Positions 14,196 to 50,381 of a DNA stretch of 64,000 nucleotides are shown one piece after another; the stretch's first letter is position 1; each line of letters opens with the position of its first letter. The DNA comes from Denitrobaculum tricleocarpae (lineage in GTDB: Bacteria > Pseudomonadota > Alphaproteobacteria > Kiloniellales > Kiloniellaceae): NCBI RefSeq assembly GCF_007004665.1, contig NZ_ML660055.1, positions 310,001 through 374,000 of the forward strand. Direction: 5' to 3'. The notes beneath the pieces are model-generated. The model was not told the origin of the DNA. It worked only from the letters and a program-made list of their open reading frames with translations, and ran no database searches. A program made the position numbers and the translations under genes.

Positions 14196-14245
14196 GCTCC
14201 CCCCGTGACGCTCCCCCCATGAAGCTCCCCAGTGACGCTCCTGGG
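14196..14245 (+). repeat. C-rich 14-nt tandem repeat carrying NTGA start/stop units
   Basis: Three and a half units: GCTCCCCCCGTGAC (14196-14209), GCTCCCCCCATGAA (14210-14223), GCTCCCCAGTGAC (14224-14236), GCTCCTGGG. GTG 14205 opens a five-codon frame that stops on the TGA inside the next ATGA. A frame from GTG 14232 runs 49 codons and ends at TGA 14379-14381, just past the likely TTG start of the DddP-like gene. Confidence 0.8.
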
Positions 14246-37805: not shown

Positions 37806-39056
37806 ATGAATTCCCATCCCAGCATCGCCGTCATTCTCAAAGGCTATCCGCGGCTTTCAGAGACCTTCATCGCGCAGGAGCTGCATGCGCTCGAGCAGCG
37901 CGGCCTGCATTTGCATTTCTTTTCGCTCCGCCATCCGACGGACACCTCGGTGCATCCGGTTCATCGGGAAATCAAGGCGCCGGTAACCTATCTGCCGGAG
38001 TACCTGCACAATGAACCCGCCCGGGTCTGGCGCGCCTGGCGGGCCGCGGCGAAGCTGCCCGGTTACAAAAGGGCCCGCGCGGCCTTTCTGCGCGATCTGA
38101 TCCGCGATCTGACGCCCAACCGTATCAGGCGCTTCGGGCAGGCCTGCGTTCTGGCAACCGAACTGCCGGGCGGAATCACCCAGCTCTACGCTCATTTCCT
38201 GCATACGCCGGCCTCGGTCACGCGCTACGCGGCGCTGATGACCGGCCTGCCCTGGTCCGCCTCCGCCCACGCCAAGGATATCTGGACCACGCCGGAGTGG
38301 GAAAAACGCGAAAAGCTCGCGGAACTGGCGTGGCTGGTCACCTGCACGGAAGTGGGTCGGGATCACCTCGCCGGCCTCGCACCCCAGCCGGATAAGGTCG
38401 GTTTGGTCTATCACGGCCTGGATTTTGAGCGCTTTACGGCCAACGGCAGTGACAGTCCCTGCAACACACTCCTTTCCAACCGCGATGGCAGCGCCGCCGC
38501 GGATCCCGTCGTTCTGCTCTCCGTCGGGCGGGCCGTGGAAAAGAAAGGCTACGATGATCTGCTGAACGCACTGACCCGGTTGCCCAAGGATCTGCAGTGG
38601 CGTCTGGTGCATATCGGCGGCGGGAAACTGAAGGAAAAGCTGAAGGCCCTGGGTCAGCAGCTCGGCATCGATGATAGGATAGAATGGCTTGGCGCGCAGC
38701 CCCAGGAGGTCGTTCTGGAACACTACCGCAAGGCTGATCTTTTCGTACTGGCCAGCCGGATCGGTAAGGACGGCGACCGGGATGGCTTGCCCAATGTCCT
38801 GATGGAAGCGCAGAGTCAGGCCATCGCCTGCGTTTCGACAGTGGTTTCCGCGATTCCGGAGCTGATCCGTGACGGAGAGACAGGACTTCTCGTCGCGCCC
38901 GAGAATCCCCCGGAACTGGCGGCGGCCCTTCATGACCTGATCACTGACCCTGCCCGGCGGGCGCAGCTCGCAAATGCCGGCTGTCAGAGAGTCAGGCGTG
39001 ACTTCACCATGGGGAAAGGCATCGACGCGCTGGTGTCCCGTTTCGGTCAAAACTGA
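37806..39056 (+). CDS. Glycosyltransferase family 4
   Basis: A 416-residue GT-B enzyme: N-domain ILKGYPRLSETFIAQELHALEQRGL, and a donor domain with VLLSVGRAVEKKGYDDLLNAL, then FVLASRIGKDGDRDGLPNVLMEAQSQAIACVSTVVSAIPELIRDGETGLLVAPEN, the E(x7)E region of family 4. Makes a retaining sugar linkage, probably on a lipid-linked or surface glycan. ATG 37806 is used. Its TGA at 39054-39056 is the first TGATG of a triple stop/start repeat leading into the next glycosyltransferase. Confidence 0.88.
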   Translation: MNSHPSIAVILKGYPRLSETFIAQELHALEQRGLHLHFFSLRHPTDTSVHPVHREIKAPVTYLPEYLHNEPARVWRAWRAAAKLPGYKRARAAFLRDLIRDLTPNRIRRFGQACVLATELPGGITQLYAHFLHTPASVTRYAALMTGLPWSASAHAKDIWTTPEWEKREKLAELAWLVTCTEVGRDHLAGLAPQPDKVGLVYHGLDFERFTANGSDSPCNTLLSNRDGSAAADPVVLLSVGRAVEKKGYDDLLNALTRLPKDLQWRLVHIGGGKLKEKLKALGQQLGIDDRIEWLGAQPQEVVLEHYRKADLFVLASRIGKDGDRDGLPNVLMEAQSQAIACVSTVVSAIPELIRDGETGLLVAPENPPELAAALHDLITDPARRAQLANAGCQRVRRDFTMGKGIDALVSRFGQN

Positions 39057-39094
39057 TGCTTGGGCAAAACTGATGCTCGGACCAACCTGATGCG
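39044..39094 (+). repeat. 17-nt tandem repeat with three TGATG stop/start units
   Basis: CTGATG occurs at 39053, 39070 and 39087. The upstream gene stops at TGA 39054-39056; ATG 39056 opens MLGQN and stops at 39071-39073; ATG 39073 opens MLGPT and stops at 39088-39090; ATG 39090 starts the real gene. Each stop overlaps the next start by one base. Confidence 0.88.
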
Positions 39095-42069: not shown

Positions 42070-43269
42070 ATGTCCGCAACCAAGAAGCCATCAAAACGCG
42101 CCGATGTTCTCTTCTACGTCCAGCATTTGCTGGGGATCGGGCATCTGCGCCGGGCCAGCGTCCTGGCGCGCGCCATGGACCGGGCCGGCCTGCGGGTGGT
42201 CTTCGTGTCAGGCGGCATGCCGGTGCCGGGCACCGATGTCGGCGGCTGCGCATTTGTCCAGCTGCCGCCCCTGCGCACGCTCGATGAGAGCTTCAGCGCG
42301 CTGGTCGATGCGGAGGGCCGGGAACTGGACGACGCGGGCAAGACCGCGCGCCGCGATCTGCTGCTCGGCCTGCTGGAACAGCACGAACCGCGCGTGATCC
42401 TCTTCGAAATGTTTCCTTTCGGGCGGCGCCAGATGCGCTTCGAGCTCATGCCCCTGCTCGACGCGGCTAAAGCCTCTGCGCATCCACCGCAGGTCTTCTG
42501 CTCCCTGCGCGATATCCTGACCACCCATAAGAAACCCGGCAAAACCGAGTGGATTGTTTCGGCTGTGGAACGTTATTTCGACCAGGTCCTGGTCCACGGC
42601 GATCCGTCTTTCGTCACCTTGGAGCAGTCCTTTCCCGCGACCGAGACCTTCGGCGACAAGATCCGTTACACAGGCTACGTGGTCGAAACGGCCCATCTTC
42701 CGACTCAGGCAGAACCGCGCCGCGACGGCGAGGTCCTGGTGTCCGCGGGCGGCGGCGCCGTTGCCGCGCCCCTGATCGAGGCTGCGATCGAGGCCCGCCC
42801 GCTGACGTCTCTGCGGGATGTCCCCTGGCGGTTGCTTGCAGGCCATAATCTGCCTGAAGACCGCTTCCGGGCCCTACAGGCACTTTGCGGCGAGGGCATC
42901 GTCCTGGAGCGGGCCCGCGCCGACTTCACCGAACTGATGGCGCGGGCGCGACTCTCCATCAGCCAGGCGGGTTACAACACCGTCATGGATATCCTGGCCA
43001 CGGAGGTGCCGGCAGTGCTGGTGCCCTTCGCGGCCACCCAGCAAACCGAACAAACCCTGCGGGCCAAGCTCCTGGCCGAGCGCGGCGCCGCGGTGCTGCT
43101 GCCGGAAGAGCGTCTGGACGCCCAAACACTCGCCAGGTCCGTCGAGGAGGCACTGGCTCCGGCCCGGCCAACACACCCCTTCGACAAGCTGGATATCACC
43201 GGTGCCGAGCGAACCGCGGCCCTGATCAGCGATGTGGCTCAGGGGGATAGAGAGGATGCTGCGCCATGA
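42070..43269 (+). CDS. Predicted glycosyltransferase, MurG-like (COG4671 type), copy 3
   Basis: A 399-residue paralogue of the gene at 40267, with VLFYVQHLLGIGHLRRASVLARAM, FEMFPFGRRQMRFELMPLL, FCSLRDILTTHKK, and ISQAGYNTVMDILATEVPAVLVPFAATQQTEQTLRAKLLAERG. The phosphatase lies between the two, so the pair may have arisen by local duplication. It ends in an ATGA overlap (43266-43269) with the deacetylase-like gene. Confidence 0.85.
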   Translation: MSATKKPSKRADVLFYVQHLLGIGHLRRASVLARAMDRAGLRVVFVSGGMPVPGTDVGGCAFVQLPPLRTLDESFSALVDAEGRELDDAGKTARRDLLLGLLEQHEPRVILFEMFPFGRRQMRFELMPLLDAAKASAHPPQVFCSLRDILTTHKKPGKTEWIVSAVERYFDQVLVHGDPSFVTLEQSFPATETFGDKIRYTGYVVETAHLPTQAEPRRDGEVLVSAGGGAVAAPLIEAAIEARPLTSLRDVPWRLLAGHNLPEDRFRALQALCGEGIVLERARADFTELMARARLSISQAGYNTVMDILATEVPAVLVPFAATQQTEQTLRAKLLAERGAAVLLPEERLDAQTLARSVEEALAPARPTHPFDKLDITGAERTAALISDVAQGDREDAAP

Positions 43270-44096
43270 CCGGCTGGGACAGCCTCGCCCGCGAACTGGC
43301 ATGTTGGCACGACGCAGGAAAAGTGGCGACGGTCTGGTGGCGCGACGACGACGCGGTGGCCTCGACAGACGCCCTGGAGCGCCTGCTGATACTGTCCCAA
43401 AAGCATGCCGCCGGACTGGGGTTGGCCGTGATCCCCGAGCGCTGCGACGCCGCACTGGCCGAAAGACTGAGCGATGCGGCGCGCGGCACCCATGCCCGGA
43501 TCGCCGTGCTCCAGCACGGCATCGCCCACGAAAACACCGCCCCGGCCGGTGAAAAGAAGACGGAACTCAGCCAGGCCGCCCCGCTGAACGAAACAATGGA
43601 ACGCTTGAAAGCGGGCCAAGACCGCCTCGCCGGTCTCTTCGGCCAAGGATTCCTGCCCGTTCTGGTCCCGCCCTGGAACCGGATCTCACCGGAGATCATT
43701 GCCGAATTGCCCGCCCGCGGCGTTTCTGGCCTCTCGACCTACAAAGCCCGTCCGCAGCGGATGGCGGCCCCGGGTCTGCTCCAGGTCAACACCCACGCCG
43801 ATCTGCTGCGCTGGAAACCGGACCGCGGTTTTCTGGGCGAAACCGAGGTCCTGGGCCTGCTGCAGACCCATCTTCAGGACCGGCGCGAGGATCGCGCAGA
43901 TGCAGATGAGCCGACCGGCATCCTGACCCACCATCTGGTGCACGACGAGGCAACCTGGGTCTTTCTCGACCGGCTTCTCGGGTGGCTGAAGCGGCAACCC
44001 GCGATAAAGTTCCTTGCGCCTTCAGAGGCCTTTTCACATTCTGCCCTGACCAACCAAAACGAAAAGCACAGCGCGGCGGGAAAAGGCCCGATGTAA
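43266..44096 (+). CDS. Polysaccharide deacetylase-like protein
   Basis: A 276-residue protein with the order of motifs of NodB-fold deacetylases, in divergent form: TVWWRDDDAVA (acids that bind metal), IAVLQHGIAHENTA, FLPVLVPPWNRIS, then VNTHADLLRW and GILTHHLVHDEATWVFLDRLL. It may remove acetyl groups from a sugar made by the cluster. Sequence likeness to characterised enzymes is weak, so this is a fold-level call. No signal peptide, so it would act in the cytoplasm, as for lipid-linked sugars. Followed by a triple ATGA repeat. Confidence 0.72.
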   Translation: MTGWDSLARELACWHDAGKVATVWWRDDDAVASTDALERLLILSQKHAAGLGLAVIPERCDAALAERLSDAARGTHARIAVLQHGIAHENTAPAGEKKTELSQAAPLNETMERLKAGQDRLAGLFGQGFLPVLVPPWNRISPEIIAELPARGVSGLSTYKARPQRMAAPGLLQVNTHADLLRWKPDRGFLGETEVLGLLQTHLQDRREDRADADEPTGILTHHLVHDEATWVFLDRLLGWLKRQPAIKFLAPSEAFSHSALTNQNEKHSAAGKGPM

Positions 44097-44101
44097 GAAA
44101 G

Positions 44102-44152
44102 ATCTGGGCATGAGGAGAATCTGGCTATGAGGAAAATCGGGGCGTGACGAGA
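44102..44152 (+). repeat. Three 17-nt units, each a start codon plus ribosome site, before a membrane-protein gene
   Basis: Units at 44102-44118, 44119-44135 and 44136-44152. ATG 44110 opens MRRIWL and stops on the TGA of the next ATGA; ATG 44127 opens MRKIGA and stops on the TGA of GTGA at 44144-44147; GTG 44144 is the real gene start (MTRYRY). GAGGA in each unit lies about nine or ten bases before the next start. Confidence 0.88.
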
Positions 44153-44731
44153 TACCGGTACCCGCTCAAATCGGTCTTGGGCGATTATCTGCGCGCCGCG
44201 GCCGGCCTGATCATCGCGCTCGGGCTGCTTTTGACCGGTGCCCTGCCCTGGTTTGTTGCCGTGCTGTTCGGCGCGCTGACCATCCTCTTCGGCCTCTTCG
44301 CCCTGCGCACCGTGAAACGCCAGTACCTGGAAGTCTCGCTCGATGACCAGGGCATCGCGACGCTGGTCAGGCCGGGCGATCCGGAGACCTCCAAGGGGCG
44401 CTTCCCCAGCTATCTCGCCTGGCAGGAGCTGACCGGGATGAAACTGCGTTACTTCGGCAGCCGCCGCAGCCACAAAAAGGAAGGCGGCAGCGGTTTCATG
44501 CAGCTCACTCTGACCGGGCGTACAGCCGGACCCGCAGGCGCAAACAACAGGAAAACCACCATGTCCTTCGAATCCTCGCTGGAGGGTTTTCCCGCCATCG
44601 TGCGCCGGGCCGCCGAAGCCGCCCGCAAGCAGGACATCAATATCGATGCGACCACGGCCAGCAACCTGCGGCCGCTTGGGATCGACCTCAATGCGGATGC
44701 CGGAAGGCCTCGAAGTGTGAGCAGGCCTTGA
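44144..44731 (+). CDS. Small membrane protein with two helices and a PH-like cytoplasmic domain
   Basis: A 195-residue protein: a helical hairpin at about residues 20-55 (AAAGLIIALGLLLTGALPWFVAVLFGALTILFGLFAL), then a basic, beta-rich region (QYLEVSLDDQGIATLV, LAWQELTGMKLRYFGSRRSHKKEGG). The layout resembles bacterial PH-like membrane proteins. I do not recognise a specific family. It is the last gene of the glycosyltransferase run and begins at GTG in the third unit of a tandem repeat, so it is probably translated by reinitiation from the deacetylase-like gene. Confidence 0.7.
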   Translation: MTRYRYPLKSVLGDYLRAAAGLIIALGLLLTGALPWFVAVLFGALTILFGLFALRTVKRQYLEVSLDDQGIATLVRPGDPETSKGRFPSYLAWQELTGMKLRYFGSRRSHKKEGGSGFMQLTLTGRTAGPAGANNRKTTMSFESSLEGFPAIVRRAAEAARKQDINIDATTASNLRPLGIDLNADAGRPRSVSRP

Positions 44732-46812: not shown

Positions 46813-47811
46813 GTGTTAGGCTATACCGTTCGGCGCATCCTCACCATGATCCCCACTCTGCTGGCGATCAGTTTCATCATCTTCGTCATCATCCAGTTGC
46901 CCCCGGGCGATTTCCTGGAGACCGAAATCGCCGAGATGCAGGCCCAGGGCGAGGCGGTCGATCCAGAAAAGATCGAGTACCTGCGCCGCGAGTACGGGCT
47001 CGACAAACCCTTCCTGGAGCAATACGCGGTCTGGGTCTTCGGTCTGGTCCAGGGGGATCTGGGCTTTTCCTTCGAACATCAGCTGCCGGTCAACGAGGTG
47101 ATCGGCGACCGGCTCTGGCTGACCTTCGTGGTCGCCCTGGCCACCATTCTCTTTACCTATGCGGTCGCTTTCCCGATCGGCATTTACTCGGCAGTGCGCC
47201 AGTACAGTGTCGGCGACTATGTCCTGACCTTCATAGGCTTTCTGGGTCTCGCCACCCCGAACTTCCTGCTGGCGCTGGTGCTGCTGTACTTCGCGAACCT
47301 TTGGTTCGGAACCTCGATCGGCGGCCTGATGGATCCCAAATACGTCGATCACCCCTGGACCTGGAGCAAGGTGAGCTCGATCCTGGAGCACCTCTGGATC
47401 CCGGTCATCGTGATCGGCACCTCAGGCACCGCCGCCATGATCCGCCGCCTGCGCGCCAACCTGCTGGACGAATTGCAGAAACAATATGTCATCACAGCCC
47501 GCGCCAAAGGCCTGTCGCCTCTGAAGGTCCTGCTGAAATACCCGCTGCGCATGGCGATCAATCCCTTCATCGCGGATATCGGCAACGTGCTGCCCCAGCT
47601 GATTTCCGGCGCGGTCCTGGTGTCCGTGGTGCTGAGCCTGGAGACCACAGGCCCCATGCTGGTGCGCGCACTCCAAAGCCAGGATATGTACCTGGCCGGC
47701 TCTTTCCTGATGTTTGAAGCCAGCCTGGTGGTCATCGGGGTCTTTATCTCGGATCTGGCGCTCGCCGTGCTCGATCCCCGCATCCGGCTCGCGGGAGGGG
47801 CAACGAAATGA
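46813..47811 (+). CDS. Peptide-type ABC transporter permease (DppB)
   Basis: A 332-residue permease beginning MLGYTVRRILTMIPTLLAISFIIFVI, the usual opening of DppB/OppB proteins, with DYVLTFIGFLGLATPNFLLALVLLYF and the EAA-like loop ARAKGLSPLKVLLKYPLR. GTG 46813 is five bases past the ATPase stop; the longer frame would lie within the ATPase gene. Ends as ATGA with the next permease (47808-47811). Confidence 0.92.
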   Translation: MLGYTVRRILTMIPTLLAISFIIFVIIQLPPGDFLETEIAEMQAQGEAVDPEKIEYLRREYGLDKPFLEQYAVWVFGLVQGDLGFSFEHQLPVNEVIGDRLWLTFVVALATILFTYAVAFPIGIYSAVRQYSVGDYVLTFIGFLGLATPNFLLALVLLYFANLWFGTSIGGLMDPKYVDHPWTWSKVSSILEHLWIPVIVIGTSGTAAMIRRLRANLLDELQKQYVITARAKGLSPLKVLLKYPLRMAINPFIADIGNVLPQLISGAVLVSVVLSLETTGPMLVRALQSQDMYLAGSFLMFEASLVVIGVFISDLALAVLDPRIRLAGGATK

Positions 47812-49061
47812 GCGATCAGACCTTGCCGCCCAACAGCCGAAACTCCAAAAATCCGGGCTCCCAAACTCCGGGTTCCCAAACTCCGGGTTCACAGACTTCA
47901 GGCGCGCCCCAGAATAACAGCGGTCACTACGTCAATCCGGCACCTTTCGATCCCCAGTCCGTAGCCGCCCTGACCCCGGAACAGGAACGCTATTACATGG
48001 CGTCTCAGTGGCGGATCATGTGGTGGAAGTTCAAGCGCCACAAGCTGGCGGTCTATTCCGGGGTCGTGCTGCTCATGATGTACTTCGTGGCCGCCTTCTG
48101 CGAGATCTTCGCTCCCTACAATCTGCACAGCCGCCACATCGACTTCATCCACGCGCCGCCCCAGGGCATTCATCTCTTTCATGAAGGCGAGTTCATCGGG
48201 CCCTTCGTTTATGGCTACGACTACCGGCTCAACATGGAAAACCTGCGGCGCGAGTACACGCCGAACCCGGAAAAAGTCGACAAGCTGCGCTTCTTCTGCA
48301 GCGGCGAGAGCTATAAATTCTGGGGATTGATCGAAGGTGATTTCCATCTGGTCTGTCCCGCCGAGGGCGGCACGGCCTTTTTCTGGGGCACCGACCGCCT
48401 GGGCCGCGACCTGCTCAGCCGCATCTTCTACGGCTCGCGGATTTCTCTCACCATCGGACTGATCGGCGTGGCGATCAGCTTCGTCCTGGGCACCATCATC
48501 GGCGGTGTGGCCGGCTATTACGGCGGCTGGGTCGATAACGTGGTCCAGCGTGCCATCGAGATCTTCAAGTCCTTCCCGGAACTGCCGCTCTTCATGACCC
48601 TTTCAGCGCTTTTACCGGTCAGCTGGAGTCCGATCGGTGTCTTTTTCGGCATATCGGTGATCCTGGGCCTGCTCGACTGGCCGGGCCTGGCCCGCGCGGT
48701 CCGCTCCAAGCTGCTCAGCCTGCGGGAAGAGGATTTCTGCACCGCGGCCCAGCTCATGGGCGCCTCGCCCTCACGGGTCATCGGACGGCACCTGCTGCCC
48801 AGTTTCGCCAGCCACCTGATCGCCTCGGCCACCCTGGCCATTCCGACCATGATCCTGGGCGAAACCGCCCTCTCCTTCCTGGGCCTCGGCCTACGGCCGC
48901 CGATCACGTCCTGGGGCGTCCTGTTGAACGAAGCCCAGAACATCAACGTGGTCGCGCTCTATCCCTGGCTGATGCTGCCGGTTCAGCCGGTGATCCTGGT
49001 CATCCTGGCCTTCAATTTCCTGGGCGATGGCCTGCGCGATGCAGCGGACCCTTACAAGTGA
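47808..49061 (+). CDS. Peptide-type ABC transporter permease (DppC) with repeat-bearing N-terminus
   Basis: A 417-residue permease: a polar N-terminal arm of about 60 residues with three PGSQT repeats, one helix (YSGVVLLMMYFVAAFCEIFAP), a long periplasmic insert (about residues 105-190, with two Cys in FFCSGESY and HLVCPAEGG), then the membrane core with GTDRLGRDLLSRIFYGSRISL and the EAA-like CTAAQLMGASPSRVIGRHLLPS. It pairs with DppB. The long arm and insert are unusual for DppC, which is about 300 residues, but are seen in a subgroup of longer permeases. Confidence 0.9.
   Translation: MSDQTLPPNSRNSKNPGSQTPGSQTPGSQTSGAPQNNSGHYVNPAPFDPQSVAALTPEQERYYMASQWRIMWWKFKRHKLAVYSGVVLLMMYFVAAFCEIFAPYNLHSRHIDFIHAPPQGIHLFHEGEFIGPFVYGYDYRLNMENLRREYTPNPEKVDKLRFFCSGESYKFWGLIEGDFHLVCPAEGGTAFFWGTDRLGRDLLSRIFYGSRISLTIGLIGVAISFVLGTIIGGVAGYYGGWVDNVVQRAIEIFKSFPELPLFMTLSALLPVSWSPIGVFFGISVILGLLDWPGLARAVRSKLLSLREEDFCTAAQLMGASPSRVIGRHLLPSFASHLIASATLAIPTMILGETALSFLGLGLRPPITSWGVLLNEAQNINVVALYPWLMLPVQPVILVILAFNFLGDGLRDAADPYK
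47851..47910 (+). repeat. 15-nt in-frame tandem repeat in the DppC-like N-terminus
   Basis: ATCCGGGCTCCCAAA, CTCCGGGTTCCCAAA, CTCCGGGTTCACAGA and a decayed fourth unit. Encodes PGSQT three times, close to the gene start. Confidence 0.88.
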
Positions 49062-49780: not shown

Positions 49781-50299
49781 TTGATCCAGATTCCCCTGTT
49801 GCAAACCGAACGACTGCTCCTGCGTGCCCCGCAGGGCAGCGACGCCGGCGCCTATCAAACGTTCTATGCGGACGCTGAAGCCTCGAAGTTTTACGAAGGG
49901 CCGAAACCACCCCACGTCGCCTGGAACAAACTGGCCGCGGTTCTCGGCCACTGGCATTTGCGCGGCTATGGCATATGGGCGCTGGAAAGACGGGATAGCG
50001 GCGCGTTCATCGGCGCCTGCGGGCTGGCTTGGCCGGACGGATGGCCACGATCGGAACTGACCTGGTGGATCGCGCCGGAAGCCCGGCAACAAGGCTTCGC
50101 CAAGGAAGCCTCCCGGGCCGCCATCGCTTTCGGCTACGACCTGCTGAAGTGGGACCTTGTCCAAACCCACATGTTGGACGAGAACCTCGCCGCCAAAGCT
50201 CTGGTCCTCTCCCTTGGTGGCGAGGTCATCGCACGGGAAACCTTCCCCGACGGCTTTGACCGTGACATTTACAGGTTGCCCAGACCTGATCCGGCCTAA
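49781..50299 (+). CDS. GNAT family N-acetyltransferase (RimJ/RimL-like)
   Basis: A 172-residue acetyltransferase: start IPLLQTERLLLRAPQGSDAGAYQTFYAD, middle GYGIWALERRDSGAFIGACGLAWPDGW, the acetyl-CoA site ELTWWIAPEARQQGFAKEASRAAIAFGYD, and DENLAAKALVLSLGGEV, as in the RimL/ydaF group. Target unknown. TTG 49781 is the only start near the conserved beginning; the ribosome site is weak. A 15-nt repeat begins at once after the stop. Confidence 0.85.
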   Translation: MIQIPLLQTERLLLRAPQGSDAGAYQTFYADAEASKFYEGPKPPHVAWNKLAAVLGHWHLRGYGIWALERRDSGAFIGACGLAWPDGWPRSELTWWIAPEARQQGFAKEASRAAIAFGYDLLKWDLVQTHMLDENLAAKALVLSLGGEVIARETFPDGFDRDIYRLPRPDPA

Positions 50300-50300
50300 G

Positions 50301-50360
50301 GCCTGACCTCCTGCGACCCGGTCCTCTGCGGCCTGATCCTCTGCGGCCTGATCCTCTGCG
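50301..50360 (+). repeat. Four 15-nt tandem units between the GNAT gene and ubiTUV
   Basis: GCCTGACCTCCTGCG, ACCCGGTCCTCTGCG, then GCCTGATCCTCTGCG twice in perfect copy. The minus strand reads AAEDQ repeats but no gene there is convincing. It lies just upstream of the FNR box. Confidence 0.88.
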
Positions 50361-50381
50361 GCTTTCTGGCACACCTCGGAA

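Follow-up and report, generated by a model that had tools for sequence, protein, structure and literature searches.

Between two genes of Denitrobaculum tricleocarpae, here called A and B, the window (the whole stretch of DNA analysed, 64,000 nt) carries three 17-nt tandem units, which form two micro-ORFs and lead to the start codon of gene B. We hold it fairly probable that this array is an ordinary translationally coupled junction which was duplicated by slippage, and whose copies survive if the hand-over of ribosomes is unbroken, rather than a purpose-built switch. Neither gene matched Pfam or NCBIfam at the cut-offs used. Genes were called by a codon-usage script of our own, for which gene starts are approximate. 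The parts of the junction, with the array read directly from the sequence, are:

43266..44096, plus strand: upstream gene A, 276 aa, ending at TAA 44094-44096 (our own gene caller)
44093..44096, plus strand: register 1, GTAA here and ATGA, an intact 4-nt overlap, in the sister species
44102..44118, plus strand: unit 1, ATCTGGGCATGAGGAGA, with start ATG 44110 and GAGGA 44112-44116
44119..44135, plus strand: unit 2, ATCTGGCTATGAGGAAA, with start ATG 44127 and GAGGA 44129-44133
44136..44152, plus strand: unit 3, ATCGGGGCGTGACGAGA, containing the real start of gene B, GTG 44144
44110..44130, plus strand: micro-ORF 1, MRRIWL-stop, TGA 44128-44130
44127..44147, plus strand: micro-ORF 2, MRKIGA-stop, TGA 44145-44147
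44144..44731, plus strand: downstream gene B, 195 aa, N-terminal half hydrophobic as judged by eye

Tandem Repeats Finder describes 44102-44152 as 3.0 copies of period 17 with 73% matches. Together with the sequence itself this bears out the core of an initial annotation of this DNA, namely three 17-nt units giving the two micro-ORFs, with stop-start overlaps, ahead of gene B. The period, 17, is 2 mod 3; hence the TGA within each NTGA terminates the ORF begun one unit earlier, and both micro-ORF TGAs overlap the following start by two bases. A GAGGA had been assigned to every unit; it stands 10 nt ahead of the following start in units 1 and 2, and unit 3 has GACGA in its place. Both steps from ATG 44110 to GTG 44144 have the geometry of coupled gene pairs, with stop and start overlapping or within about 10 nt. 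The first step does not: ATG 44110 comes 13 nt after the gene A stop, and the relay is incomplete at its upstream end. Compared with the intact ATGA of the sister species, the register 1 link, now GTAA, has been lost.

The junction was compared between the own genome holding the window (G000, 6.44 Mb; the window is C4:310001-374000) and three relatives of the same genus, G001, G003 and the sister species G002. Gene B was matched in 53 of the 58 genomes searched, the own genome included, and a GTG occupies the place equivalent to 44144 in all three relatives. The A-B junction of G001 and G003 is one plain GTGA overlap, following gene A tails that read ..RKGKA-stop and ..RKDRA-stop, respectively. 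The exact 4-nt overlap is common: parsing succeeded at 27 of the 30 loci fetched, the own locus among them, and 21 of the 27 have it. This count is possibly low, since three loci were unparsed and L010 and L011 were apparently misparsed. By species, each represented by one genome, the registers number one in G001, one in G003, four in G000 and six in G002, five of the last having starts. Measured from the gene A stop, those of G000 lie at -4 (GTAA, start lost), +13, +30 and +47, and those of G002 at -4 (ATGA), +13 (AGGA), +30 (TTGA), +47 (TTGA), +64 (ATGA) and +81 (GTGA); the period is thus a constant 17 across the array in both species, as in a minisatellite or VNTR. The starts at register positions are ATG, GTG or TTG, except for one lost in each species, and each species has one decayed link, the first register in G000 and the second in G002, where AGGA has lost both start and stop. 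With that TGA gone, the G002 micro-ORF MRKIRAGGKSGLEDDLALRKIWP reads through to a stop at the fifth register, overlapping a start there, since every third register is in frame when the period is 17. The relay chain of G002 is consequently whole from gene A to gene B, through -4, +64 and +81. The serial hand-over layout proposed in the initial annotation is therefore complete in G002, whereas in G000 it begins with a 13-nt gap. With registers numbering 1, 1, 4 and 6 and most NTGA overlaps kept, the comparison gave neither of the two outcomes that had been named as counting against that annotation, relatives without the repeat or overlaps that are lost.

The single overlap in G001 and G003 and the exact 4-nt overlap in most parsed loci show that the coupled A-B junction was multiplied through tandem duplication in the G000/G002 lineage. 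As far as four genomes show, this multiplication is confined to the G000/G002 branch, on which unit number has also changed. By inspection, a tandem copy, 17 nt long, of the G003 segment GAGGAAAGACCGGGCGT would alone yield GTGAGGA..GCGTGA, the architecture observed. Duplication of such a G003-like segment would make the micro-ORF repeat the last codons of gene A, and in frame the micro-ORFs do match that tail (RKDRA in G003, MRKIGA in the micro-ORF); the idea that they are decayed copies of the first codons of the downstream gene has to be given up.

The survey of other junctions covered 2.53 Mb of the 6.44-Mb own genome and 0.32 Mb of the relatives. In the 2.53 Mb of G000, four further junction arrays were found besides 44102-44152, with units that are mutually unrelated. 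One lies in the window:

39043..39093, plus strand: array at a glycosyltransferase pair, 3 x 17 nt, TGATG overlaps, upstream stop ending at 39056 and downstream start at 39090

It reads ..FGQN-stop / MLGQN-stop / MLGPT-stop / MRLAF.., with micro-ORFs MLGQN and MLGPT, and has three units in G000, two in G002, a single TAATG in G001 and no overlap in G003. The other three are named oppB-oppC-like, azlC-azlD-like and SBP-permease from our own reading of the proteins, made without a family search. The oppB-oppC-like junction has micro-ORFs MEEMG and MGEVD, with three units in G000, two in G002 and one each in G001 and G003. At the azlC-azlD-like junction the upstream tail is STKE-stop and the micro-ORFs are VSAKA and MSAEA; the units number three in G000 and one each in G002 and G003, and G001 gave no match to the gene at E 1e-30. 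The SBP-permease junction (upstream tail PKTQ-stop, micro-ORF MSKTP) has two units in G000 and G002 and one in G001 and G003, as read by eye. Likeness of the micro-ORFs to the upstream tail therefore recurs at the azlC-azlD, SBP-permease and glycosyltransferase junctions (FGQN against MLGQN) and is not clear at oppB-oppC. Each of the five junctions shows two or three states, which supports the expectation of copy-number change by duplication. The five periods are 17, 17, 17, 14 and 14, all 2 mod 3, and the gaps from upstream stop to downstream start are +10, +24, +33, +33 and +47 nt in G000, and +81 in G002. Three candidates were set aside: a period-14, NTGA-like array of the window (14196-14241, GCTCCCCCCGTGAC), which lies about 25 nt past a predicted stop and has no gene start established inside, and two repeats at stops, a period-19 ATGA repeat (G000 C4, about 267416) and a period-13 repeat (C3), for which the next predicted gene begins outside the array.

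The mechanism that we favour starts from an ordinary coupled junction with an NTGA or TGATG overlap. The genome is rich in 12-18-nt tandem repeats, and here replication slippage would most likely have duplicated the junction in tandem. When a duplication of length P spans the overlap, every extra copy would become a micro-ORF that opens at one start and closes at the stop of the next copy, and this micro-ORF would be in frame solely when P is 2 mod 3. Stop and start being at zero distance at each step, a ribosome leaving gene A could then, by terminating and reinitiating repeatedly, reach gene B by way of the micro-ORFs, presumably with some loss per step, and gene B may additionally receive de novo initiation through its own Shine-Dalgarno (SD) sequence. 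Copies with P of 0 mod 3 would extend the N terminus of gene B and those with P of 1 mod 3 would send ribosomes into gene B out of frame; both would tend to be lost. Slippage is the probable source of the copies, short repeats of every residue being common in this genome, and misfits were probably removed through loss of coupling, a selection that would account for the 2 mod 3 bias.

The period residues agree with this frame rule in part. Repeats with a score of 12 or more and a period of 7-45 were sorted by place in all surveyed sequence. Inside genes the period is 0 mod 3 in 136 of 143; among the 117 intergenic repeats outside tight co-directional pairs, residues 0, 1 and 2 number 47, 40 and 30, the 30 including the G002 ortholog of the 44102-44152 array (gap 81); and among the 13 at tight co-directional junctions (gap of at most 60 nt) they number 3, 0 and 10. 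The two intergenic distributions differ (Fisher p = 0.0004, or 0.001 after one orthologous duplicate is dropped), and the five relay arrays differ from the 30/117 background for residue 2 with p = 0.0016, in a test on a small sample (n = five relays) that was chosen after the data had been seen. Residue 2 mod 3 is thus favoured at tight junctions in this small sample. The tight-junction repeats that are neither relays nor duplicates lean the same way (4 of 7, p = 0.09), which the model does not predict and which weakens the argument. Arrays over stops number 18, against 5 in a shuffled control, among 729 stops; they comprise four relays, the G002 ortholog, ten that fall short of the downstream start and three with a score of 9.0, which were left out (residues 0, 0 and 2). 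The 44102-44152 array is absent from this list because the gene A stop now lies outside it. Of the ten arrays over stops that fall short of the downstream start, four have residue 2 (against the relays, p = 0.04).

Tandem repeats also occur in other settings. In the window, a period-15 array at 47844-47890 lies in the start of an ABC-transporter-permease-like ORF (47808-49061) and gives a repeated, in-frame, SQTPG-like N terminus; another (GGCCTGATCCTCTGC, about four copies, 50300-50362) directly follows the predicted gene 49781-50299. At L052 of G002 (minus strand, orthologous to window position about 40238), three period-15 copies (TGAGCCCAGCCGCCG) make alternative starts in the same frame, which makes them the relay's counterpart with residue 0 mod 3. 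Outside the window, a nearly perfect period-15 array of about nine copies (GCCCTTAATGACTCT) stands at a predicted gene end (G000 C4:254637-254766). A dispersed sequence, TGAGGTAGTGTCCCGTTGAATCTGAAATTCAATGA, and its near copies occur more than 10 times each in G000 and G002 on many contigs, and are perhaps a mobile-element end. Repeats scoring 12 or more number 224 in the 2.53 Mb sampled from G000 and 43 in the 200 kb from G002; the 60-kb samples of G001 and G003 have 5 and 1, respectively. Samples this small and uneven do not allow a repeat richness peculiar to the G000/G002 branch to be claimed.

The strongest competing account is a neutral minisatellite, in which slippage duplicated the junction, gene B is initiated de novo at the SD and start of the last copy, and neither the micro-ORFs nor their frame matter; we think it unlikely, though it deserves to be taken seriously. 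Several observations suit it. Repeats of 12-18 nt and of all residues are frequent, as the 117 intergenic cases attest. The number 17 has nothing special about it, as junction arrays of period 14 exist and triple TGAs are fewer at period 17 (41 in G000, 45 in G002) than at period 16 (51 and 72) or 18 (102 and 119). Among 58 of the 86 period-17 matches from these two genomes, 15 have units at least 60% alike, and the same is true of 23 among 42 of the 123 period-16 matches. Micro-ORF relays of any sequence, found at 42 of 834 G000 junctions, barely exceed the roughly 33 per shuffle obtained by mononucleotide shuffling of the gaps (620 junctions with a gap above 0), so that they find no support as a genome-wide trait. 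The SD energies are -1.2 (almost none) for ATG 44110, -8.6 for ATG 44127 and -5.6 kcal/mol for GTG 44144, set against a median of -4.3 for predicted gene starts; the copies thus bear their own SD, and gene B could initiate without the relay. No RNA structure was detected across the A-B junction (z = +0.53). Against a neutral origin stand the five junction arrays out of five with a period of 2 mod 3, the lack of any 1 mod 3 period at a tight junction, the retention of the A-B overlap in so many parsed loci, and the glycosyltransferase array, in which the SD is weak throughout (-2.4, -2.4 and -3.2 kcal/mol).

A dedicated regulator, that is, a selected rheostat in which unit number and start strength (ATG, GTG, TTG) fix the B:A ratio by serial reinitiation with stepwise losses, is in our judgement improbable. 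It would accommodate the different register numbers of the sister species (four and six), the differing unit numbers at the glycosyltransferase, opp and azl junctions and the near-complete set of start codons at the registers. The array is absent from G001 and G003, however, and hence dispensable for the gene pair; both species with the array have decayed links, and unit number could simply drift.

A mobile element akin to the mycobacterial MIRU, which has the same placement with an ORF coupled via a stop-start overlap (PMC12548453), is very improbable as the origin, since the units of one junction bear no sequence relation to those of another, the core RTGAGGAN10RTGAGGA has a single match in the own genome (and none in G001-G003), which leaves no shared mobile unit, and the units look like the single-copy form of the same junction (G003 GAGGAAAGACCGGGCGTGACC). 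Assembly error, conceivable in draft genomes, or chance is just as improbable: the separate G002 assembly (CANMQP010000012.1) carries at this position an array that is longer and has diverged, with a repeat score of 30.4 against 12.6 for 44102-44152, and none of 527 shuffled junction windows (one mononucleotide shuffle each) scored 12 or above.

Translational coupling by termination-reinitiation at NTGA and TGATG overlaps is known (PMC6728339, PMC10666635). Every array step is such an overlap, and the relatives, with their single junction, show the ordinary form; in the array, micro-ORFs of 5-6 codons link several overlaps one after another, where the known case has one overlap between two genes. 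The closest known case is the mycobacterial MIRU, which has an ORF coupled at -4 nt (PMC12548453), and which at senX3-regX3 is present as three 77-bp units in H37Rv and as two 77-bp units and one 53-bp unit in CDC1551 (PMC4213456). In that respect the earlier statement that no element of this type had been described is weakened. Both are repeats that carry an ORF, lie at a -4 nt junction and may stand in tandem; by our arithmetic the MIRU lengths 77 and 53 follow the same frame rule (2 mod 3), and the micro-ORFs are predicted from sequence to be overlap-coupled to the neighbouring gene, with a complete chain in G002. The arrays described here have 14-17-nt units that are junction-specific and seemingly derived from the junction itself, whereas MIRU is a family of tens of bp, dispersed and apparently mobile; one repeat family at many loci is not what we found here. 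Phase-variation tandem repeats (PMC3711429) are likewise of slippage type and changeable in number, but those lying near a frame transition shift the reading frame of a gene, whereas with a period of 2 mod 3 the hand-over stays possible however many units there are. The synthetic bicistronic design also uses a short translated ORF to feed ribosomes to the next start, but is engineered, with a single leader ORF and no tandem array. In that design the SD is located inside the short leader ORF. Among the matches listed from the open-licence literature, there was no tandem array of stop-start overlaps made locally.

Published distance data conflict, and to that extent count against the proposed relay. 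In PMC10666635, a +38-nt stop-to-start distance nearly abolished coupling in three native E. coli pairs, and +14 nt cost native pairs 40-80% of reinitiation; for coupling, the final 15 nt of the upstream gene were enough. On these figures, an untranslated insert of the +38-nt size should uncouple A and B, and the present gaps should mostly be uncoupling unless the insert is translated stepwise. The review PMC12548453 cites a synthetic study in which spacings of -4 to +25 nt had no effect and another in which coupling declines just gradually, from +50 nt on. From RRF-depletion data it has moreover been argued, in PMC7538156, that reinitiation is not a major coupling mechanism in E. coli.

Whether reinitiation by the same ribosome underlies bacterial coupling, and how far it reaches, is thus still disputed, as the results in these three papers differ. 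The junction arrays are natural insertions of about 14-85 nt in coupled pairs, with the uninserted form present in sister species; if strict distance dependence is true and coupling survives, the route must be via the micro-ORFs. A bolder reading, which we regard as doubtful, is that this lineage repeatedly makes serial micro-ORF relays kept by the 2 mod 3 rule, so that evolution could tune the ratio of downstream to upstream protein through unit number while the reading frames of both genes always stay intact. What sets these arrays apart from the dispersed family of MIRU is that each junction seems to have made its own units. The frame rule also predicts which small duplications are tolerable in operons, and any set of genomes could serve to test it.
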